Positions 26,893-39,270 of a DNA stretch of 64,000 nucleotides are shown in pieces (position 1 is the first letter of the stretch; each line of letters starts with the position of its first letter). The stretch comes from Trichocoleus sp. FACHB-46. Lineage in GTDB: Bacteria; Cyanobacteriota; Cyanobacteriia; FACHB-46. The translations under genes were made by a program, and so were the position numbers. The stretch lies in the NCBI RefSeq assembly GCF_014695385.1, contig NZ_JACJOD010000025.1, positions 1-64,000 of the forward strand, written 5' to 3'. Under the pieces are notes generated by a model. That model was not told where the DNA came from. It was given only the letters and a program-made list of their open reading frames with translations, and did not search any database.

Positions 26893-29010
26893 ATGGTTTC
26901 CTCAATTCGTTTTTTAATGTGTTCGCCGGATCACTATGAGGTGGACTATGTAATTAATCCTTGGATGGAAGGAAATGTTCACAAGTCTTCTCGCGATCGC
27001 GCTGTAGAGCAATGGGATCAGTTGTTTCATTTGATCAAAGAATACGCGATCGTTGATTTGATCCAACCTCAAGTCGGTGTCCCCGATATTGTGTTTACGG
27101 CGAATGGGGGTTTGGTCTTAGGCGACACCGTGGTGTTAAGTCGATTCTTCCATAAAGAGCGGCAAGGTGAAGAACCCTTCTTCAAGCAATGGTTTGTTGA
27201 GAAGGGCTACACTGTGCATGAATTGCCGAAAGAACTGCCATTTGAGGGGGCGGGAGATGCCCTATTCGATCGCGAGGGTCGCTGGCTGTGGGCAGGGTAT
27301 GGTTTCCGCTCCGAACTCGATTCCCATCCTTATTTAGCCAAGTGGTTGGATATTGAAGTGCTGTCGCTGCGCCTCATGGACGAGCGCTTCTATCACCTCG
27401 ATACCTGCTTCTGCCCACTTAGCCAAGGTTATCTGCTCTACTATCCTCCTGCTTTCGATGCTTATTCCAACCGCTTGATTGAAATGCGGGTGCCTGAGGA
27501 GAAGCGGATTGCGATCGCGGAAGCCGATGCAGTGAACTTCGCTTGCAACGCAGTGAATGTGGATCACAGAGTGATCTTGAACAAAGCCAGTGATGAGCTG
27601 AAGCAACGTCTGGCTGATAAAGGCTTTGAAGTGCTGGAAACGCCTCTAACCGAATTTCTCAAAGCGGGAGGTGCGGCTAAGTGCTTAACGCTGCGTGTCA
27701 CCGAACCTGTCCAAGCTGAAGTTCATGCTAGGGCTACCGTGGAGAGCCGTGTGATCCGCCTAGACGGTCACTTACTCGACTCTGGCTTGATCAACCGTGC
27801 CTTAGATTTAGTGGTGGAAGCAGGCGGCAGCTTTCAAGTACTCAACTTCAACTTGGGAGAACAGCGGCAAAGCACTTCTTCGGCGGAAGTGAAAGTGTCG
27901 GCTCCTTCCCACGAGGTCATGGAAACGATCATGACGCAGTTGATCGATCTGGGCGCTGTGCCACCCCCCCAAGAAGCTTGTGATATCAGCTATGAAGTGG
28001 TGACTCAAGCGGGAGTAGCTCCAGATGATTTCTATGTCACCACGATTTACCCCACAGAAGTGCGCGTGGAGTGTCAGTGGGTGAAAGTGCAGAAACAACG
28101 GATGGATGCGGCGCTCGTCTTGGATTCAACCCCTACAGGTCCGATCGCCGAATGTAAGCTGCTACGAGATTTGGCAGTAGGCGATCGCGTCATTATTGGC
28201 GTAGAAGGAATTCGCACAGTCCGGAAAACGGAATCCCGCGAGCAGCGGAATGTGCAAGAGTTTAGCTTCATGGGAGCAGGCGTTTCTAGCGAACGCCGCG
28301 TCGAGCTTGTGGTGGAGCAGATTGCTTGGGAATTACGCAAGATTCGCGATCAAGGTGGCAAGGTAGTAGTCACGGCGGGGCCAGTGGTAATTCATACAGG
28401 CGGAGGCGAGCATCTAGCCCACCTGATCCGTCAAGGCTATGTGCAAGCGCTACTGGGTGGAAATGCGATCGCCGTTCATGACATTGAGCAATCGATGATG
28501 GGCACTTCCCTCGGTGTGGATATGAAGCGTGGGGTTTCGGTGCGCGGTGGTCATCGCCATCACCTCAAGGTGATCAATGCCGTCCGTCGCTGTGGCAGCA
28601 TTCCCCAGGCTGTAGAGCAAGGTGTAGTGACGAGTGGCGTGCTGTATGAGTGCGTCCGCAACGGCGTGCCTTTCTCCCTGGCTGGCTCAATTCGCGATGA
28701 TGGCCCTTTACCCGACACGCAGATGGATTTGCTCCAAGCCCAAGCAGACTATGCTCGCCTAATCGAAGGAGCCGATTTGATTTTGATGCTGTCGTCGATG
28801 CTGCACTCAATCGGCGTGGGCAACATGACTCCAGCAGGTGTGAAGATGGTCTGCGTGGACATCAACCCAGCCGTAGTTACCAAACTTAGCGATCGCGGTT
28901 CTGTCGAATCCGTTGGAGTGGTCACAGATGTAGGTTTGTTCCTCAGCTTGTTAGTGCAGCAGCTCGATAAGCTCACAAGTCCCTATCATTTCGCTTCTGC
29001 TACTGCCTAG
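26893..29010 (+). CDS. agrE: Arginine dihydrolase / ornithine cyclodeaminase AgrE (ArgZ-type)
   Basis: The N-terminal domain hydrolyses arginine to ornithine, CO2 and two ammonia; the C-terminal domain converts ornithine to proline in the Nostoc enzyme. With the ATG at 26893 the catalytic residues fall at the published positions of the Synechocystis homologue: N22 (INPWM), N71 (FTANGG), E118 (FEGAGDA), H168 (FYHLD) and C264 (AAKCLTL). This agreement settles the start against an in-frame TTG at 26845. The C-terminal half (about 290-705) carries a Rossmann-like cyclodeaminase-type domain (VVVTAGPVVIHTGGGEHLAH, GGNAIAVHDIEQSMMGTSLG). The enzyme feeds on arginine released from cyanophycin and links to the GOGAT gene in this window metabolically. 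Confidence 0.95.
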   Translation: MVSSIRFLMCSPDHYEVDYVINPWMEGNVHKSSRDRAVEQWDQLFHLIKEYAIVDLIQPQVGVPDIVFTANGGLVLGDTVVLSRFFHKERQGEEPFFKQWFVEKGYTVHELPKELPFEGAGDALFDREGRWLWAGYGFRSELDSHPYLAKWLDIEVLSLRLMDERFYHLDTCFCPLSQGYLLYYPPAFDAYSNRLIEMRVPEEKRIAIAEADAVNFACNAVNVDHRVILNKASDELKQRLADKGFEVLETPLTEFLKAGGAAKCLTLRVTEPVQAEVHARATVESRVIRLDGHLLDSGLINRALDLVVEAGGSFQVLNFNLGEQRQSTSSAEVKVSAPSHEVMETIMTQLIDLGAVPPPQEACDISYEVVTQAGVAPDDFYVTTIYPTEVRVECQWVKVQKQRMDAALVLDSTPTGPIAECKLLRDLAVGDRVIIGVEGIRTVRKTESREQRNVQEFSFMGAGVSSERRVELVVEQIAWELRKIRDQGGKVVVTAGPVVIHTGGGEHLAHLIRQGYVQALLGGNAIAVHDIEQSMMGTSLGVDMKRGVSVRGGHRHHLKVINAVRRCGSIPQAVEQGVVTSGVLYECVRNGVPFSLAGSIRDDGPLPDTQMDLLQAQADYARLIEGADLILMLSSMLHSIGVGNMTPAGVKMVCVDINPAVVTKLSDRGSVESVGVVTDVGLFLSLLVQQLDKLTSPYHFASATA

Positions 29011-29013
29011 ACT

Positions 29014-29043
29014 CTTAACGCATTGTTAATACCTTCTTTCCCT
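29014..29043 (+). promoter_or_regulatory. PHO-box-like repeat before the metallophosphatase gene
   Basis: Three 8-mers recur with an exact 11-base period: CTTAACGC (29014), GTTAATAC (29025) and CTTTCCCT (29036). Cyanobacterial PHO boxes are 8-mers of the type PyTTAAPyPy(T/A) separated by 3 bases. The third unit is weak. The site starts three bases after the agrE stop and lies 94 bases before the next ATG. Confidence 0.5.
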
Positions 29044-29136
29044 CTCGTTGAAGAAAACACTCTAAGGTAGTACCTCAGGCTGGCTTTTGTGGAGCTATCT
29101 ACTTTTAGGGTCATCTCTTGGTGGGAGGGAAGGAAC

Positions 29137-30135
29137 ATGCGTCGAAGCCGTCAGTTCATTTGGGTTGCCTTGTTGTCAATGCTGCTTGTAGGACTGGTCT
29201 CTTGGTTAGAAGCCCAGCCTTTTGGCAACGAAAGTGTAGCGGCTACGAAGTTTGACTTTGGCTTGATCGGCGACTTACCCTACAACCCTGAGCAGGAAGG
29301 CAAGTTTCAAAACCTGATTCAGGACATGAACAAGACACGGCTCGCCTTCATTGTTCACGATGGTGACTTTAAGAGTGGCTCGACTCTATGCACTGATGAA
29401 ACGTTCTATCAGCGCTACAACTTGTTCAATACCTTTGTGCATCCGTTCATTTTTGTGCCGGGAGACAATGAGTGGACAGACTGCCACCGCGCGAACAATG
29501 GCGGCTACGACCCCTTAGAACGGTTGGCTAAACTGCGGGAAATCTTCTTTCAAGGCAATCAGAGCCAAGGTAAACGCACGATCGCCCTGACTCGCCAAAG
29601 TAACGATCCGCAGTACAGCAAATTTCGCGAGAATGTCCGCTGGATATCCAACAACATCGTGTTTGTGGGGCTGAATATTCCGGGGAGCAACAATAACTTC
29701 GGTCGCACTCCAGAAGCTGACGCTGAATACCAAGAGCGCAATGCGGCAAATTTAGCTTGGTTAAGAGAAGGATTCGCGATCGCCCAGCGCAATGGCAGCA
29801 AAGGCATCATGCTGGTTATTCAAGCCAATCCTGGGTTCGAGTTAGCTCCTACCGATCCCAACCGTACCGGGTACAACGATTTTCTCGCGGCTTTAGAAGC
29901 TGAAACTGTCGCCTTCAAAAAGCCTGTGGTTTTGGTACATGGAGATAGTCACTATTTCCGCATTGACAAGCCTTTAGTTGGTTCGCGCAGCCAAAGCCGC
30001 ATTGAGAACTTTACTCGGGTTGAAACCTTTGGCTCACCAGATGTCCACTGGCTGAGGGCAACTGTTGACTTCAAAGACCCCAATCTCTTCAGCTTTCAGC
30101 AAGAAATTGTTGAGCAGAACTTAGTCGCTCACTAA
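29137..30135 (+). CDS. Secreted calcineurin-like metallophosphatase
   Basis: The ATG at 29137, preceded by GGAGGGAAGG, gives 332 residues with an N-terminal export segment (FIWVALLSMLLVGLVSW). An in-frame start at 29089 would bury that signal. The metallophosphatase motifs are in order: FGLIGDLPYN, IVHDGDFKSG, VPGDNEW and later VLVHGDSHYFRID. They supply the Asp, His and Asn ligands of a dinuclear metal site. It probably acts in the periplasm or outside the cell; the substrate is unknown. The upstream periodic 8-mers and the PhoX-like genes downstream suggest a role in phosphate scavenging. Confidence 0.88.
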   Translation: MRRSRQFIWVALLSMLLVGLVSWLEAQPFGNESVAATKFDFGLIGDLPYNPEQEGKFQNLIQDMNKTRLAFIVHDGDFKSGSTLCTDETFYQRYNLFNTFVHPFIFVPGDNEWTDCHRANNGGYDPLERLAKLREIFFQGNQSQGKRTIALTRQSNDPQYSKFRENVRWISNNIVFVGLNIPGSNNNFGRTPEADAEYQERNAANLAWLREGFAIAQRNGSKGIMLVIQANPGFELAPTDPNRTGYNDFLAALEAETVAFKKPVVLVHGDSHYFRIDKPLVGSRSQSRIENFTRVETFGSPDVHWLRATVDFKDPNLFSFQQEIVEQNLVAH

Positions 30136-30218
30136 GTAGCTCCGTAAAGCAACTTGACAGCAGCAATCTTGCCAAAAGGTGTTAAGCAATACAGCAAAAA
30201 AATTGAAATCTGCAATTG

Positions 30219-30248
30219 CTTAACCCAAGATTAATCTATCCTTTGCCA
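30219..30248 (+). promoter_or_regulatory. PHO-box-like repeat before the first PhoX-like gene
   Basis: CTTAACCC (30219), ATTAATCT (30230) and CTTTGCCA (30241) recur with an 11-base period; the first two fit the PyTTAAPyPy(T/A) pattern well. The first unit also forms part of a perfect 10-base inverted repeat, GTTAAGCAAT (30181-30190) with ATTGCTTAAC (30215-30224). The gene starts 56 bases downstream. Confidence 0.6.
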
Positions 30249-30304
30249 GTTGATGAGATTCGTTGCTTAAGCTAATGACGCATCCTGAGAACTGAGAGAA
30301 GGAC

Positions 30305-31642
30305 ATGGCTTTATCGCGACGTAAATTCTTTGCGCTGGCAGGTGCTAGTGCTGCTGGTACGGTAATGATGTCTCCTTTGCAGGCGCTCTATGCTCGCAAA
30401 GCGAACGGTCAATCTGTATTTGGCGATGGCTATGGCCCACTGATTCCCGACCCCAATGGTTTACTAGACTTACCTCGTGGCTTCCAGTACCGAGCTTTCT
30501 CCCGCACTGGCGACGTTATGAGCAATAACTCTTTAGTGCCCGGAGGACACGATGGCATGGGGTCTTTTGCAGGTCCCAGAGGTACTACCATCTTGGTACG
30601 GAACCACGAACTCAGCCCCACTTCTGCTACCAAAGTTTCTGACCTGAATGCACCTGTGTATGACCCCTTGTGCAAAGGTGGCACAACCACATTGATTATT
30701 GGCGAAGATCGCAAACTTATCCGTCACTATCCTTCCATTCAAGGCACCTTCCGCAACTGTGCTGGTGGTGTAACTCCTTGGGGTTCTTGGCTGACGTCGG
30801 AAGAAAACACTTCTACACCCGAAGAAAATCCTGGTTTAGTTTCTAAGCGGCATGGTTATAACTTTGAAGTACCCGCTAAAGCGACAGGCGCTGTTCCCCC
30901 AATTCCTTTAACTGCAATGGGCCGCTTCAACCATGAAGCTGTGGCGATCGATCCTGCAACAGGGATTGCTTATGAAACTGAAGATCGGGGTGATGGCCTG
31001 TTCTACCGATTTATCCCCAATCAACCTGGCGAATTACAGATGGGTGGTACTCTGCAAGCCCTAGCAATCAAGGGGAGACCTGGTGTCAATACTAGTAACA
31101 ACAGCGGTGTCACCATTCCAGTTGGTCAGACCCTGGAAGTAGAGTGGGTGACTATCGACAATCCTGACCCAGCCCGTGATAGTGCTCCTACAGGGACACG
31201 ATTCCAGGGGAGAGCGAAGGGAGCCGCTACCTTTACCCGTGGAGAAGGTATCTGGTTTGGCAATAATGAGTTGTACTTTACTTGTACCGATGGTGGCCCC
31301 TTCCGTTTAGGACAAGTTTGGCGCTATGTGCCTGGGCAGTCTGCTCAGGATGGCGGTACACTCACCCTGTTTGTTGAATCCACAGATAAAGCAGAACTAG
31401 AAAATCCTGACAACATTGTTGTCTCTCCGTTCGGCGATCTCTTTCTTTGTGAAGATGGGGATGACGAGCAATTCGTTGTGGGTGTCACTCCTCAAGGGGA
31501 ACTGTATCACTTTGCTCGTAATGCCATTAATGACAGAGAGCTTGCAGGTGCGTGCTTCTCTCCTGATGGTCAAACCATGTTCGTGAACATTCAAACTCCT
31601 GGCATCACTTTTGCCATTTGGGGACCTTGGAGCCGAGCTTAA
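30305..31642 (+). CDS. PhoX-like (DUF839) protein with Tat signal, first copy
   Basis: The 445-residue protein starts with a twin-arginine export signal (MALSRRKFFALAGASAAG), so it should be exported folded. The rest belongs to the DUF839/PhoX beta-propeller family, whose characterised members are calcium/iron-dependent alkaline phosphatases. Family landmarks include VPGGHDGMGSF, ILVRNHELSPT, GRFNHEAVAIDP, YETEDRGDGLFYRFIP, DNIVVSPFGDLFLCEDGD and the C-terminus QTPGITFAIWGPW. It is shorter than characterised PhoX enzymes, so activity is inferred. A paralogue lies 960 bases downstream. Between them sits one small gene on the opposite strand. Confidence 0.9.
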   Translation: MALSRRKFFALAGASAAGTVMMSPLQALYARKANGQSVFGDGYGPLIPDPNGLLDLPRGFQYRAFSRTGDVMSNNSLVPGGHDGMGSFAGPRGTTILVRNHELSPTSATKVSDLNAPVYDPLCKGGTTTLIIGEDRKLIRHYPSIQGTFRNCAGGVTPWGSWLTSEENTSTPEENPGLVSKRHGYNFEVPAKATGAVPPIPLTAMGRFNHEAVAIDPATGIAYETEDRGDGLFYRFIPNQPGELQMGGTLQALAIKGRPGVNTSNNSGVTIPVGQTLEVEWVTIDNPDPARDSAPTGTRFQGRAKGAATFTRGEGIWFGNNELYFTCTDGGPFRLGQVWRYVPGQSAQDGGTLTLFVESTDKAELENPDNIVVSPFGDLFLCEDGDDEQFVVGVTPQGELYHFARNAINDRELAGACFSPDGQTMFVNIQTPGITFAIWGPWSRA

Positions 31643-31859
31643 TTTAAGTTTGTTAGTTGCTCTCTCTTAATGTTTTAGAATTGGCATTTTTAGAGAGCGA
31701 TCGCGTTTATCCTTCTCACCTGCGTTAATGTTTGGGCGAATCGTTGCCACTTGGAAACAGTAAAGGTTTTCAGGTGGCAATTTTTTAGCTAATTTTTAGA
31801 TAAATTGGTTGAACAAAAGAGCTTTTTAGGGCCGCCAAATGACTCCTCAAGTATTGCTG

Positions 31860-32321
31860 CTAATCGGCAAGGTCACGACAGTAATACTCAGTCGATAAAT
31901 TCACTAGAATATCTCTGTCAACTGAAGTTTTATTTTTCCAAAAAGTGCTTTCGGTACCTGTCCTTAACGCATTGCATACGTCTGATGCGGCTTGAAGAAT
32001 TTGGCGAGGATTGTTTTGAGCTACTTGCCTTAACTGTGGGTTAAGTGTGGGAGAACTTGCTAAAAGACCTAAATACTCTTCAAGAAATTGCTGATCTCTA
32101 GTTTGAACTATTTCAACCGCTTTTTCTCCACAGAGGCGATCGAGATTGAGGGTTGAACCACTAGTCGTTCTCATATAACACACTGACGCATCAGTGCTTG
32201 GGACAGTAGAGTAGTCAAACTGCTGAGAGGCAAGAACGGAGTGATTATGGCTTCCTACTAAATTTATTAATAGAGTATTTACTAATAGGCTAGAGGTTGT
32301 CAGAAGTCTCAGGTTTTTCAT
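31860..32321 (-). CDS. Small exported protein between the PhoX-like genes
   Basis: I do not recognise the family. The 153-residue product has a signal peptide (MKNLRLLTTSSLLVNTLLINLVG) with likely cleavage near residue 32 (VLASQQ). The mature part has four cysteines (positions near 48, 64, 117 and 149 by reading), which may form disulfides, and helical stretches such as EIVQTRDQQFLEEYLGLL. It is antisense in orientation to both PhoX-like genes. An exported product in this place could work with the phosphatases, but only the location suggests it. Confidence 0.65.
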   Translation of the reverse strand: MKNLRLLTTSSLLVNTLLINLVGSHNHSVLASQQFDYSTVPSTDASVCYMRTTSGSTLNLDRLCGEKAVEIVQTRDQQFLEEYLGLLASSPTLNPQLRQVAQNNPRQILQAASDVCNALRTGTESTFWKNKTSVDRDILVNLSTEYYCRDLAD

Positions 32322-32513
32322 TGGAGTATTTCATATTGAACCTTCATAAGTACAGCAAATACAAGTATAAACGCAAGATACCTGTTGCAAATAAGTTTCA
32401 TTTTTAATTTAACCTTTGAGATTTTAACTTAATCTTTGTAATTGTTAATAATAAGTTGGTGATTAGAAATTCATATATTTTCTAACTTAAGTTTTTGCTT
32501 TTTATAAGCTTCT

Positions 32514-32532
32514 CTTAGCCTCTACTTAAACT
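32514..32532 (+). promoter_or_regulatory. PHO-box-like pair before the second PhoX-like gene
   Basis: CTTAGCCT (32514-32521) and CTTAAACT (32525-32532) are two 8-mers with the 3-base spacer and 11-base period expected of a PHO box, each with one departure from PyTTAAPyPy(T/A). They lie 75-93 bases before the GTG start. Confidence 0.4.
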
Positions 32533-32606
32533 AAGAATTCTTATCTTTCCTAGATAATCAAACTGCCTATTGGTAACAACCTTTTCAGAATTTCAAAGAG
32601 GCTGTA

Positions 32607-33866
32607 GTGAATCTATCAAGACGTAAATTTTTTGCCCTGGCAGGGACATCGGCTGCGGGTGCTGTATTGTTATCCCCTTTGGAAGCTTTTTATGCTAAAC
32701 CCTCGATCGCTGCTGGGCCTTACGGTAATTTAGTCGCTGATCCAAATGGAGTCTTAGATTTACCAGCTGGGTTTACCTATCGCAGGCTGTCTGAAACGGG
32801 GCAAACCATGACCGATGGTTACAGAGTGCCTGGTGGTCATGATGGTATGGGTGCCTTTGCAGATGCCAGCGGCAATACGGTTCTCATCCGGAACCATGAA
32901 CTCGCTCCTACCTCTAGTAATGGCTTGAGCGCTCCCAGCACCAGGAAGTACAACACCAACGCTAGGGGCGGCTGCACTAAGTTGGTGGTTAGTCCCACTC
33001 GGACTCTGGTATCGCATCGAGGTGTGTTGGCAGGAACGATTCGTAACTGTGCTGGTGGTCCGACCCCTTCAGGCTCTTGGCTAACCTGCGAGGAAACCTT
33101 TGAAACCAACAATACCAAGAGGCACGGCTACGTATTTGAGGTTCCCAGCAGCGCAACGGGGTTTGTGACACCTGTGCCGCTAACCGCGATGGGACGTTTT
33201 AATCATGAGGCTGCTGCTGTAGACCCCAACACAGGGTATGTCTACATGACGGAAGACCGAGGAGATGGGCTTTTCTATCGCTTCATTCCCAACCAAAGAA
33301 CCAACTTGAGTGCTGGCGGCACTTTATCTGCTTTAAGGATCACGGGTTCCTCCGGAATCAATACCGCCACGGGTTTCCCCAAAAATACTGCTAGAACAGT
33401 GGACTGGGTGACGATCGCGAATCCCGACCCTTCAACGGATACCGTTAGAACAGAGGGATTTAACAAGGGAGCAGCGAGATTCTCTGGTGGAGAGGGGATC
33501 TTTTACGGCGGTGGTTATGTTTACTTCACCTGCAAGAGCGGCGGTAGTTCTGGAGATGGGCAGATCTGGCGCTATTCACCTGCTAACAATACTGTCGAGC
33601 TTTATATTGAACCTAACAACTCCGGTGTCTTAGACAATCCTGACAATATTGTTGTTGTGCCAAACCGAGATATCTTCCTCTGCGAAGACGGCGATGGAAC
33701 AGACTTTATCCTAGGTGTCACCCCCAGTGGCAGTCTTTATAAGTTTGCTCGGAATGCCCTCAATACATCAGAGCTGGCTGGAGTTTGCTTCTCTCCCGAT
33801 GGTCAAACGATGTTCGTGAACATGCAAACTCCTGGCATTACCTTTGCAATTTGGGGTCCCTGGTAA
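32607..33866 (+). CDS. PhoX-like (DUF839) protein with Tat signal, second copy
   Basis: This 419-residue paralogue shares the Tat signal (SRRKFFALAGTSAAG) and the family landmarks of the first copy (VPGGHDGMGAF, MGRFNHEAAAVDP, MTEDRGDGLFYRFIP, DNIVVVPNRDIFLCEDGDG, QTPGITFAIWGPW). It starts at a GTG preceded by AAAGAGG. The two copies diverge most in the region around residues 240-300. An exported phosphatase role is inferred from the family. It ends 83 bases before the convergent amidase gene, with a HIP1-based inverted repeat between them. Confidence 0.9.
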   Translation: MNLSRRKFFALAGTSAAGAVLLSPLEAFYAKPSIAAGPYGNLVADPNGVLDLPAGFTYRRLSETGQTMTDGYRVPGGHDGMGAFADASGNTVLIRNHELAPTSSNGLSAPSTRKYNTNARGGCTKLVVSPTRTLVSHRGVLAGTIRNCAGGPTPSGSWLTCEETFETNNTKRHGYVFEVPSSATGFVTPVPLTAMGRFNHEAAAVDPNTGYVYMTEDRGDGLFYRFIPNQRTNLSAGGTLSALRITGSSGINTATGFPKNTARTVDWVTIANPDPSTDTVRTEGFNKGAARFSGGEGIFYGGGYVYFTCKSGGSSGDGQIWRYSPANNTVELYIEPNNSGVLDNPDNIVVVPNRDIFLCEDGDGTDFILGVTPSGSLYKFARNALNTSELAGVCFSPDGQTMFVNMQTPGITFAIWGPW

Positions 33867-35982: not shown

Positions 35983-38900
35983 ATGAGCCTAAACTTCGCT
36001 GAGCTGTTTGACGAAAGCTATTATCTGGCAACGAATCCTGATGTAGCTCTTGCGCTTGCTTCAGACGCATTCACCAGTGGTCTCGATCACTTCACTCGGT
36101 TCGGTCGTTTAGAGGGGCGAGACCCCAGTGCTTTTTTTGACACCAAGTACTACCTCAGTACCAACCCGGATATTGGTGTAGCGATCGCTGCTGGAACTAT
36201 CCCTAGTGCCATTGATCATTTCGTGCAGTTTGGGCAGACAGAGGGACGTGAGCCAATTTTTCTGTTTGATAGCAACTACTATTTGGCAAAAAACCCTGAT
36301 GTGGCTCAGGCTGTGGCAGCGGGCATCTTTAGCAGCGCCTATGACCACTTTTTGGAGTTCGGGCAACGAGAAAGTCGGAGCTTCGGCCCGTTTTTCGATA
36401 CCAACTATTACCTCAGCACCAATCCTGACGTAGCTCAGGCTGTGGCAGCAGGAACGATTAGAAGTGCAGTGAGCCACTTTCTGCAATTTGGCCAAGTGGA
36501 GAGGCGTGACCCCACTCCCTTATTTGATAGCGACTACTATTTAGCCCAGAACCTCGATGTAGCTCAGGCAGTAGCAGCAGGCGCTTTCAACAGTGGTTAT
36601 GAGCACTTTGCTTTGTTTGGACAAGGGGAAAATCGCAGTCCGAGCCCGGCTTTTGACGGGAGGGCTTACTTGGCGCGTTATACCGATGTTGCCCAAGCGG
36701 TGGCAGCAGGAATCTTCAAAAGCGCTTTCGAGCATTTTGCCTTGTTTGGCCAAGCGGAAAACCGTCTGGGAGTCAATGCTGCTCCTGTGGTCGGCAATCA
36801 AGCAATCACGACCAACGAAGATGTGGCGATTACCGTCAATGGCTTGCTGAATACTAGTGATAGCAATGGTGATGCGATCGCGATCGCCAGTGTCGGTCCA
36901 GCCGCAAATGGCACTGTGACCATCAATCAGGACGGCACCCTCAGCTACACACCCAACCTCAACTTCAACGGTAGTGATACCTTCACTTATACAGTGGCTG
37001 ATGCCTTTGGTGGGACCGCGATCGCCACGGTAAGTGTCTTAGTGAATCCATTGCCGGATGTTCCGATCGCGACTAACGACACGGTCTCCACCAGCGAAGA
37101 TACCCGACTGACGATTAGCAGCAATCTTCTCTTTACTAATGACATTGAGCCTGACGGCCAAACCTTACTCATTACTGGCTTTACCCAACCTGCGAATGGC
37201 TCGGTAGTAGGGAATGGTGACGGTACTTACGTCTACACGCCCAACGCCAACTTCAATGGCACAGAGAGCTTTACCTACACTGTGACTGATGGCCTCGACG
37301 GTTCTGCTACGGCAACGGTGACGATCTCGGTTGGAGCTGTTAATGACACCCCAACCCCTGGATCTGACAGCTTGACCACAAATGAAGATACATCCCTCAG
37401 CTTTACCCAAGCGAACTTACTCACGAACGATTCGGACGTTGAAGATGGACTGCTGACAGTTACAAGCTTTACTCAACCTACAAGTGGCAGTTTAGCCAGA
37501 GATAACAACGGCAACTACCTCTACACCCCTGCCCCCAACTTCAACGGCAGCGCCAGCTTTACTTACACCGTTACAGATAGCAATGGTAGTTCGGCGATCG
37601 CTACAGCCAACCTAGTGATGAACTCGGTCAATGACTTGCCCCTTGTCGGCAGCAATACCGCGACCACAGTTGAAGACACGGCTTTAACTTTAAACGCAAC
37701 AGACTTACTCGCCAATGACTCCGATACAGAGATTGGAGAGTTGCTCATTACTAGCTTTACCCAACCTGGGAACGGCAGTTTAGTGGGTAACAATAACGGC
37801 ACTTATCTGTATACACCCAACTCCAACTTCAACGGCAGCGATAGCTTTACTTACACCGTTACCGACAGCAATGGTGGCACCGCTAGTAGTACGGTGACTC
37901 TCAGTGTGACTTCAGTTAACGATTTGCCGATCGCGACTGGAGACAGCTTTAGTTTGGATGAAGATGGCACGCTGACCATTACTGCCAACAATCTGCTGCT
38001 CAACGATCGAGATGCAGATGGCACCCCGCTGCTGATCACCAATTTCACCGCTGCTTCCAAGGGGCAATTAGTCGATCGAGGCGGCAATACCTACCTTTAC
38101 ACCCCAGAGCCTGGGTTTAGTGGCAGCGATAGCTTTACTTACACCATTACAGATGGCACCAGCAATAATGCAACGGCAGTAGCTGTGGTCACGCTCACCG
38201 TTAATGCGGTCAACGACATCCCCATTGTTGGCAATGATGCGTTTACCACCAATGAAGATACAGTGCTCACGCTCAATGCCACCAACTTATTGACGAACGA
38301 TTCTGATGTGGAAGGAGAACCACTAGCGATCGTTAGCTTCTCGCAACCGACGAATGGCAGTGTTATGGGTTTTGGCAATGGCACATATCTCTACATGCCC
38401 AAGGCAGACTTTAGTGGCAGCGATAGCTTTACGTACACTGTCCGAGATGGTGTAGGTGCGACAGCAGTAGCCAACGTTAATCTCACGGTGGTTAAGGACA
38501 CGAATGTTCCGCCCATCGCCCTAGATGACTTTGTGACAACCAATGAAGACACGGCGATCGCCAGCTTCAACGCCTTTGCGAACGATACTGATGTCGAAAA
38601 TACTCCGCTTACCCTCGTCTCGTTTACCACGCCTGATCAAGGCACTGTCACCTTTAGCGAGGAAGGGGTCTTTACCTACCAGCCTAATTTTGGCTTCAAC
38701 GGTAGCGATAGCTTCAGCTACACCGTCAAGGATGGCAACAACGCTACGGCCTCTGCCACCGTTCGCATCGGGGTTAATGCAGTCAATGATGCGCCTGTGC
38801 TCAATCCTGAGGCTGCACCTCTATTAACGGCGATCGCCCCTACTGCCACCGACAGTCCCGGTAATATGGTGTTTGAGTTATTGGGTACCCAAGTCACGGA

Positions 38901-39270
38901 CTCGGACGTAGGTGCCCTCTCAGGCATTGCCATCACAGAAGCGAATGATGCTAGCGGCACTTGGCAGTACTCCCTCGATAGTGGCAGTAATTGGACGGAT
39001 ATCTCTGGAGTTTCAGAAAAGTCAGCTCAGTTATTAGCTGGCGAAGAACTGATTCGCTTCCAGCCAGAACCTAATTTCCTTGGCCTCGCCACCTTTACAT
39101 TCCACGCTTGGGATCTCACAGATGGCCAAAACGGCGAGACCATCGACTTAACCACGAGTGGTGTAGGCGGTAGTAGTGCCTTTAGTAGTGGTACCGAAAC
39201 CGCCATGCTTCCAGTTGTCATCGGCGGTATAGTTCTCGATCCGTTACCCGGAACCGGATCTGGAATTTAA
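35983..39270 (+). CDS. Large repeat protein: six FDxxYYLxxNPDV repeats plus seven cadherin/VCBS-like repeats
   Basis: The 1095 residues have a clear repeat layout. Residues about 9-264 are six units of 42-43 residues built on FDxxYYLxxNPDVAxAVAAG followed by HFxxFGxxExR. From about residue 267 there are seven units of about 96 residues with the pattern NEDT...LLTNDSD...TQPxNGSxxxxxxGTYxYTPxxNFNGSDSFTYTVTD, typical of Ca-binding cadherin-like/VCBS repeats of secreted adhesins. A different C-terminal domain follows (SDSDVGALSGIAIT-type motifs). There is no N-terminal signal, so type I secretion through the C-terminus or surface display by another route is likely. A role in adhesion or sheath formation is inference. 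The ATG at 35983 follows a 258-base noncoding region. Confidence 0.88.
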   Translation: MSLNFAELFDESYYLATNPDVALALASDAFTSGLDHFTRFGRLEGRDPSAFFDTKYYLSTNPDIGVAIAAGTIPSAIDHFVQFGQTEGREPIFLFDSNYYLAKNPDVAQAVAAGIFSSAYDHFLEFGQRESRSFGPFFDTNYYLSTNPDVAQAVAAGTIRSAVSHFLQFGQVERRDPTPLFDSDYYLAQNLDVAQAVAAGAFNSGYEHFALFGQGENRSPSPAFDGRAYLARYTDVAQAVAAGIFKSAFEHFALFGQAENRLGVNAAPVVGNQAITTNEDVAITVNGLLNTSDSNGDAIAIASVGPAANGTVTINQDGTLSYTPNLNFNGSDTFTYTVADAFGGTAIATVSVLVNPLPDVPIATNDTVSTSEDTRLTISSNLLFTNDIEPDGQTLLITGFTQPANGSVVGNGDGTYVYTPNANFNGTESFTYTVTDGLDGSATATVTISVGAVNDTPTPGSDSLTTNEDTSLSFTQANLLTNDSDVEDGLLTVTSFTQPTSGSLARDNNGNYLYTPAPNFNGSASFTYTVTDSNGSSAIATANLVMNSVNDLPLVGSNTATTVEDTALTLNATDLLANDSDTEIGELLITSFTQPGNGSLVGNNNGTYLYTPNSNFNGSDSFTYTVTDSNGGTASSTVTLSVTSVNDLPIATGDSFSLDEDGTLTITANNLLLNDRDADGTPLLITNFTAASKGQLVDRGGNTYLYTPEPGFSGSDSFTYTITDGTSNNATAVAVVTLTVNAVNDIPIVGNDAFTTNEDTVLTLNATNLLTNDSDVEGEPLAIVSFSQPTNGSVMGFGNGTYLYMPKADFSGSDSFTYTVRDGVGATAVANVNLTVVKDTNVPPIALDDFVTTNEDTAIASFNAFANDTDVENTPLTLVSFTTPDQGTVTFSEEGVFTYQPNFGFNGSDSFSYTVKDGNNATASATVRIGVNAVNDAPVLNPEAAPLLTAIAPTATDSPGNMVFELLGTQVTDSDVGALSGIAITEANDASGTWQYSLDSGSNWTDISGVSEKSAQLLAGEELIRFQPEPNFLGLATFTFHAWDLTDGQNGETIDLTTSGVGGSSAFSSGTETAMLPVVIGGIVLDPLPGTGSGI
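36007..36774 (+). repeat. Six tandem 126-129-base coding repeats
   Basis: These encode the FDxxYYL repeats of the large repeat protein. The segment encoding DVAQAVAAG recurs with near-identical DNA (GTAGCTCAGGC and GGCAGCAGG in several copies), which suggests recent expansion or conversion among units. Confidence 0.85.
36781..38790 (+). repeat. Seven tandem cadherin/VCBS-like coding repeats of about 288 bases
   Basis: Each unit ends near an AATGAC-type codon pair (Val-Asn-Asp) and restarts with a Pro-rich strand. Units share stretches such as GGCAGCGATAGCTTTAC, showing nucleotide-level as well as protein-level similarity. Confidence 0.8.

Follow-up and report, generated by a model that had tools for sequence, protein, structure and literature searches.

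What controls a group of genes for exported, phosphatase-type proteins in the cyanobacterium Trichocoleus sp. FACHB-46, and are its two PhoX-type members ordinary enzymes of their family? PhoX is a widespread phosphatase and serves as a marker of phosphate stress. The genes lie on contig NZ_JACJOD010000025.1 (assembly GCF_014695385.1), of which positions 1 to 64,000 of the forward strand were analysed and are called the window throughout; the surrounding genome is a 6.56-Mb draft, and its closest named PhoX relatives are cyanobacterial. Based on the PHO-box sites upstream of the genes, the cluster very probably serves phosphate scavenging under control of the SphS-SphR (PhoR-PhoB type) regulon. 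One of the two PhoX proteins carries a glycine in place of an active-site arginine.

High-ranking PHO boxes precede the two PhoX genes

The cluster consists of an exported metallophosphatase-type gene, two PhoX-type genes and the gene of one small exported protein. On the forward strand lie the metallophosphatase-type gene (29137-30135; 332 residues counted from the ATG), PhoX1 (30305-31642; 445 residues) and PhoX2 (32607-33866; 419 residues, GTG start). The small four-cysteine protein (31860-32321; 153 residues) is encoded on the reverse strand between the two PhoX genes. Both PhoX proteins lie well above the PF05787 cut-off of 24 bits (308 bits for PhoX1, 264 bits for PhoX2) and carry a twin-arginine SRRKFF signal, which bears out the initial annotation of two PhoX-like proteins exported by the twin-arginine translocation (Tat) route. 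The genome has one further PhoX, of the long type, on a separate contig.

Each of the three forward-strand genes is preceded on the same strand by 8-mers with an 11-base period, namely at 29014-29043 (metallophosphatase, three 8-mers), 30219-30248 (PhoX1) and 32503-32532 (PhoX2, three boxes in the best register). The first two arrays had been placed at these positions by the initial annotation, while for the third it had given the last two boxes, 32514-32532. We scored the sites with a three-box matrix built from 27 of the 30 published cyanobacterial PHO boxes (Su et al. 2007, Table 1 in the available part of PMC1906773), scanning 422 kb of the same genome. Among the 843,310 positions scored, the PhoX2 site (21.3) is fourth, the PhoX1 site (20.7) fifth and the weak metallophosphatase site (12.5) 42nd. 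When 287 genes of the genome are scored from 250 bases upstream to 60 bases inside, PhoX2 ranks second and PhoX1 third, level with the positive controls of the same genome, i.e. pstS on contig C21 (20.6), phoA (19.9) and the long phoX (18.0). The second pstS (C13) is absent from the 30 best-scoring genes listed.

In a background of 12 regions with 151 genes (L065-L076) no gene scores 16 or more and two score at least 12.5, one of them in L065, a region picked originally for its PhoB-like gene. Within the window exactly three of the 42 genes scored reach 12.5, and these are the metallophosphatase, PhoX1 and PhoX2. The comparison with background that had been proposed along with the initial annotation thus places both PhoX sites above all 151 genes. 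The accompanying claim that three such sites are unlikely to be coincidence holds for PhoX2 and PhoX1; the metallophosphatase site is marginal by score alone, yet conserved.

All three sites precede the same genes in both genus relatives, with site-to-start distances that are identical for both PhoX genes and agree within about 20 bases for the metallophosphatase. Across the three genomes 28 of 30 columns are identical in the PhoX1 site (100/139 in the remaining intergenic stretch), 27 of 30 in the PhoX2 site (168/255) and 26 of 30 in the metallophosphatase site (46/96). With the site itself counted, 30-base segments conserved equally or more number 16 of 140 for PhoX1, 13 of 256 for PhoX2 and 2 of 97 for the metallophosphatase.

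Downstream of the boxes we looked at the position of the -10 element. Among 39 strong arrays (loci with a score of at least 15 and p<0.05, together with nine sites of the own genome and one metallophosphatase site) a TAnnnT hexamer starts exactly 8 bases past the last box in 19, the runner-up offset accounting for 5. The three arrays of the window have no TAnnnT at this offset. Putative -10 hexamers are found further out on the forward strand: TAAGGT for the metallophosphatase (29063-29068) and TAAGCT for PhoX1 (30268-30273), each 19 bases past the last box (19 = 8 + 11), and GATAAT for PhoX2 (32553-32558) at 20 bases. GATAAT likewise occurs at 19-20 bases in several further PhoX2-clade members and in the sister clade. 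These distances fit activator sites set a fixed number of helical turns from a -10 element, the second spacing being an after-the-fact reading.

PHO boxes before short PhoX genes of other cyanobacteria

One scan of named genomes returned 80 short-PhoX loci, of which 79 were scored (L118 has too little upstream DNA; several of those scored are near-duplicates), with significance tested against shuffles of each locus's own upstream DNA. A box array at p<0.05 precedes 32 of the 50 cyanobacterial genes and one of the 29 from other phyla, whose DNA is often richer in G+C. Forward-strand scores exceed reverse-strand scores over 49 cyanobacterial loci (Wilcoxon p 7e-6). This supports, on sequence evidence, the phosphate-starvation gene group that the initial annotation had proposed.

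Related observations have been published for other cyanobacteria. A PHO-box consensus by Suzuki et al. (2004) is quoted in the available part of PMC9846622, and excerpts of PMC6411698 describe boxes and phosphate control for phoX of Trichodesmium. In one Synechococcus, PhoX is counted among the most abundant secreted proteins (PMC11424642, as excerpted). For Nodularia spumigena an induction of 5.4 to 7.0 log2 units when phosphate is limiting is reported for two genes with a PhoX-like annotation (PMC9846622, same part), which does not by itself imply the short type.

Control by SphR and the place of the metallophosphatase

Given the box ranks, the background, the conservation and the sites in other cyanobacteria, a scavenging cluster controlled by SphR is well supported, though by sequence only. 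When phosphate becomes scarce, phosphorylated SphR would bind the tandem 8-mers upstream of both PhoX genes and, with less strength, those upstream of the metallophosphatase. Bound SphR would then bring RNA polymerase to a -10 element lying a set helical distance away, and the exported enzymes would release phosphate from organic esters outside the cytoplasm.

A number of observations weigh against this. The genome encodes many PhoB-like regulators, none above the PhoB cut-off, and SphR is not singled out among them. A plain two-box consensus allowing up to two mismatches finds 9 matches in the window where 5.2 are expected, a count reached by 7 of 100 shuffles, and the metallophosphatase site is absent among these matches. 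Eighteen of the 50 cyanobacterial short-PhoX genes have no significant box, and the one significant locus outside the phylum does carry a box, with a score of only 3.3. The authors of the Nodularia work found no conserved P-box, according to PMC9846622; the PHO boxes seen across genera bear on this failure, and the sole Nodulariaceae row that we scored (L102) is not significant (p 0.085). No PHO box was found before the small gene, on the strand that encodes it, in any of the three members of the genus (best scores 4.3, 10.1 and 7.3; p 0.71, 0.17 and 0.25). The only short PhoX that we found described, PhoX4 of Ramlibacter (458 residues), could not be assayed, as stated in excerpts of PMC5768637. 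Lastly, a box at p<0.05 occurs in 17 of the 37 metallophosphatase-family rows from here and elsewhere, repeated loci among them, and is missing in the other 20.

The points concerning the metallophosphatase also speak for an alternative in which the phosphate regulon takes in just the two PhoX genes, while the metallophosphatase is under other control and its site is a chance or decayed one. Its score is equalled in the background, and a PhoX gene lies in the stretch covered for only 4 of the 32 metallophosphatase rows outside the genus (repeats included), two of which (L098, L121) were fetched from the PhoX side. On the other hand both genus relatives have retained the site, its own 30-base segment being one of the two best conserved, and the changes within it are confined to linkers or degenerate positions. 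In a distant relative (L163/L209) a strong box scoring 21.6 is followed by the metallophosphatase and then by a short PhoX. We consider separate control of the metallophosphatase rather unlikely.

The metallophosphatase family occurs in 32 of 388 genomes. Besides the case of L163/L209, the metallophosphatase is adjoined in L162/L208 by a long PhoX (420 bits) followed by a short one, and in L098 and L121 it lies 2-3 kb from a short PhoX. As only some loci show it, the link with PhoX is recurrent but not general.

What the protein is can be read in part from its relatives. The open reading frame runs from 29089 to 30135, and the genus alignment makes the ATG at 29137 the likelier start. Pfam, NCBIfam and the PDB gave no match for the window protein itself, which leaves the initial annotation as an exported metallophosphatase leaning on the family: 4 of 19 aligned relatives reach the calcineurin-like phosphoesterases (PF00149; best E 2e-6), and GD, GDN(E/D) and GDxH motifs are conserved. 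These motifs deviate from the usual histidine pattern of calcineurin-like phosphoesterases. A PDB profile search with the family gave one chance-like match (E 0.2), which was discarded, and a single-sequence fold with a predicted local distance difference test (pLDDT) score of 48.5 was too poor and was excluded from the fold search.

Two further observations concern this family. In Nostoc flagelliforme (L098, 4739-13341) three genes lie close together, namely one of the PhoX2 type, one of the metallophosphatase family and one for a large protein that combines an endonuclease/exonuclease/phosphatase domain with calcium-binding repeats; this may be a larger phosphate island. In L098, L121, L174-L177, L180 and L181 the metallophosphatase is preceded by NNTAACCY arrays with an 11-base period and moderate matrix scores, perhaps a variant PHO box.

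PhoX2 has lost an active-site arginine

PhoX1 and PhoX2 were aligned to the solved PhoX, with positions counted by hand; the letters at 385 and 292 match the published R and D. We take C179, E273 and E387 to be metal ligands of PhoX. The metal-site positions, N151, C152, E211, D227, E314, D369 and E383 in PhoX1 numbering and including the equivalents of these three residues and of D292, are invariant in all rows with letters among 103 short-PhoX rows (one row is a fragment, and two or more pairs are identical). According to the available part of PMC11098088, D292 is a metal-site and R385 an active-site residue of PhoX. R385 of Pseudomonas PhoX aligns with R312 of PhoX1, which has an intact RGEG motif, whereas PhoX2 reads GGEG. 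The 103 rows carry arginine at this position in 90 cases and glycine in 13, PhoX2 being one of these.

A tree of 101 of these rows, calculated with a quick method, requires two arginine-to-glycine changes, the number also imposed by its starred branches. The first glycine lineage is the PhoX2 clade, ten rows from the window's genus, Nostocaceae, Calotrichaceae and Fortieaceae, all with glycine, and its sister carries arginine. The second consists of tandem copies in family f14. The loci concerned (L022, L023, L024) hold tandem short-PhoX pairs, in which the RGEG arginine of the second copy was replaced by glycine in an independent event. The PhoX2 clade has specific lysines at 125 and 310. One of these might stand in for the lost arginine, but the second glycine lineage has neither of them.

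The predicted model of PhoX2 (pLDDT 90.1, predicted template modelling score 0.87) matches Pseudomonas fluorescens PhoX with a Z score of 30.8 and a root mean square deviation of 3.0 over 358 aligned residues, the next unrelated fold reaching 26.1. A Foldseek search with the model gave other propellers and no PhoX among the 50 matches listed; the second comparison ranks PhoX first. Taken together, the residue table, the tree and the model indicate that the scaffold and the metal-site positions are kept while the pocket has changed. PhoX2 is thus a member of PF05787 by sequence and predicted fold, and we do not claim it as a canonical PhoX enzyme.

The loss of the arginine in all ten rows of the clade, accompanied by substitutions (T to C and K, W to S, T to K) at further positions that otherwise hardly vary, might mean that PhoX2 is catalytically dead, either a remnant duplicate or a binding protein. 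This is countered by the metal-site positions, which do not vary in any row with letters, and by an identity of 85-88% with clade members of other genera, which suggests purifying selection. PhoX2 also retains its signal peptide and a strong, conserved PHO box, and we regard a dead protein as improbable. As the metal-site positions are kept and the active-site arginine is lost, PhoX2 most likely prefers other substrates. PhoX1 is most likely an ordinary Fe/Ca alkaline phosphatase of the PhoX type.

Comparison with described enzymes helps to place the change. Both window proteins share with P. fluorescens PhoX (PDB 3zwu/4a9v) the sequence family, the Tat-type signal and the metal-site positions, and PhoX2 in its model also the beta-propeller fold; they are well over 100 residues shorter, and PhoX2 has glycine for R385. 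Ramlibacter tataouinensis PhoX4 is of similar length and has a Tat signal, but all 10 of its active-site residues are reported as conserved (PMC5768637, as excerpted), of which PhoX2 lacks one. Psip1 of picocyanobacteria is a propeller phosphatase of the Fe/Ca type in which, as in PhoX2, the residue that corresponds to R385 is altered, in its case to lysine; it has no overall sequence identity with PhoX, whereas the change in the window is to glycine and within PF05787 (PMC11098088, available part). Among the matches listed in the open-access literature searched we found no description of arginine loss in PhoX. The glycine branch offers a natural test of what the active-site arginine does. A branch without it that is apparently under the same starvation switch also calls for caution before any gene of PF05787 is taken for an ordinary alkaline phosphatase.

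A small exported neighbour of short PhoX

Among 388 genomes of the class, a first search found the family of the small four-cysteine protein in 25, and a profile search (E<=1e-5) found it in 72, with scores that split into two groups. Nine matches score at least 170 bits, three in the genus and six outside, and all nine adjoin a short PhoX gene. The weaker matches (up to 78 bits) have no PhoX in flanks of up to 1.5 kb in any of 21 fetched loci (L216-L236); three of these genes are repeated in L196-L198, and three weaker loci were also viewed over 8-9 kb. Beyond the genus, the small gene lies 3' of PhoX on the same strand, whereas in the genus it is inverted between PhoX1 and PhoX2. The order of PhoX followed by the small gene is seen in three named loci, L100 (Cylindrospermum), L110 (Leptolyngbya) and L118 (Leptolyngbyaceae), L110 and L118 being two of the six strong matches outside the genus. 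The converse does not hold, as only 3 of the 80 named short-PhoX loci have the small gene within the stretch covered. In pairs outside the genus the PhoX gene has a box at p<0.05 in four of the five loci with upstream DNA.

The four cysteines are invariant in an alignment of 12 rows, four of which form two pairs of identical genes. For each of the 12 the match to DUF732 (PF05305) is weak (best E 5e-4); the window member, at 18.9 bits, stays below the cut-off of 22.4, its match being C-terminal (residues 100-150), and the four-cysteine pattern is its own. A PDB profile search with the family found no match. The weaker paralogues (L196-L198, L216-L236) are scattered across the class at a distance from PhoX, and many of them share mainly the N-terminal half with a CYM...G....L..LC motif.

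On account of its gene neighbourhood, the small protein most likely serves short PhoX as an accessory, in maturation, stability or anchoring. The suggestion that it may belong to the same response as the phosphatases is supported by its position beside PhoX and not by a box before its own gene. The matches listed in the open-access literature searched contain no description of a small PhoX neighbour, and none links DUF732 with PhoX or cyanobacteria. As a possible partner of PhoX the protein is a concrete candidate. A more far-reaching proposal, that the small protein belongs to a dedicated PhoX accessory system of cyanobacteria and forms, together with the glycine PhoX branch, a phosphatase with a new substrate range, seems to us doubtful.

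Relation to the known regulon and further candidate genes

The cluster shares with the cyanobacterial Pho regulon and SphR the tandem 8-mers with 3-base linkers before phosphatase genes, and the matrix from published sites also recovers pstS (C21), phoA and the long phoX here. The gene set is different, with two short PhoX genes, an uncharacterised metallophosphatase and a small exported protein. As regulation of PhoX through PHO boxes has already been published for cyanobacteria, the cluster is a new member of a known regulon. That the boxes instead bind another OmpR/PhoB-family regulator with a similar 11-base tandem site, responding to a different stress, is very unlikely: the many PhoB-like regulators and a best-scoring site before a membrane protein without clear phosphate role would agree with it, but the next-best sites outside the window lie before pstS and phoA and at the long phoX, and the matrix derives from phosphate genes of other cyanobacteria.

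The best-scoring site just mentioned lies on C10 of the same genome (L064, 18086-18128) in an A+T-rich, repetitive stretch about 200 bases before the gene of a 266-residue membrane-type protein; its position scores of 23-26 are the highest of all, and the gene ranks first with 23.3. Ranks six and eight fall to a 273-residue gene (18.9; L061, 12120-13031, C28), divergent from the long phoX, and a 387-residue gene (16.8; L060, 12974-14251, C21), divergent from pstS. Both are without a Pfam family, have their own PHO-box arrays and are candidate new members of the regulon. Ranks nine and ten belong to a 194-residue gene (14.1), whose match to YflT stays below threshold, and a 585-residue gene (13.4). 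In the window itself, past an amidase gene, positions 35983-39270 encode a 1095-residue protein with repeated segments.

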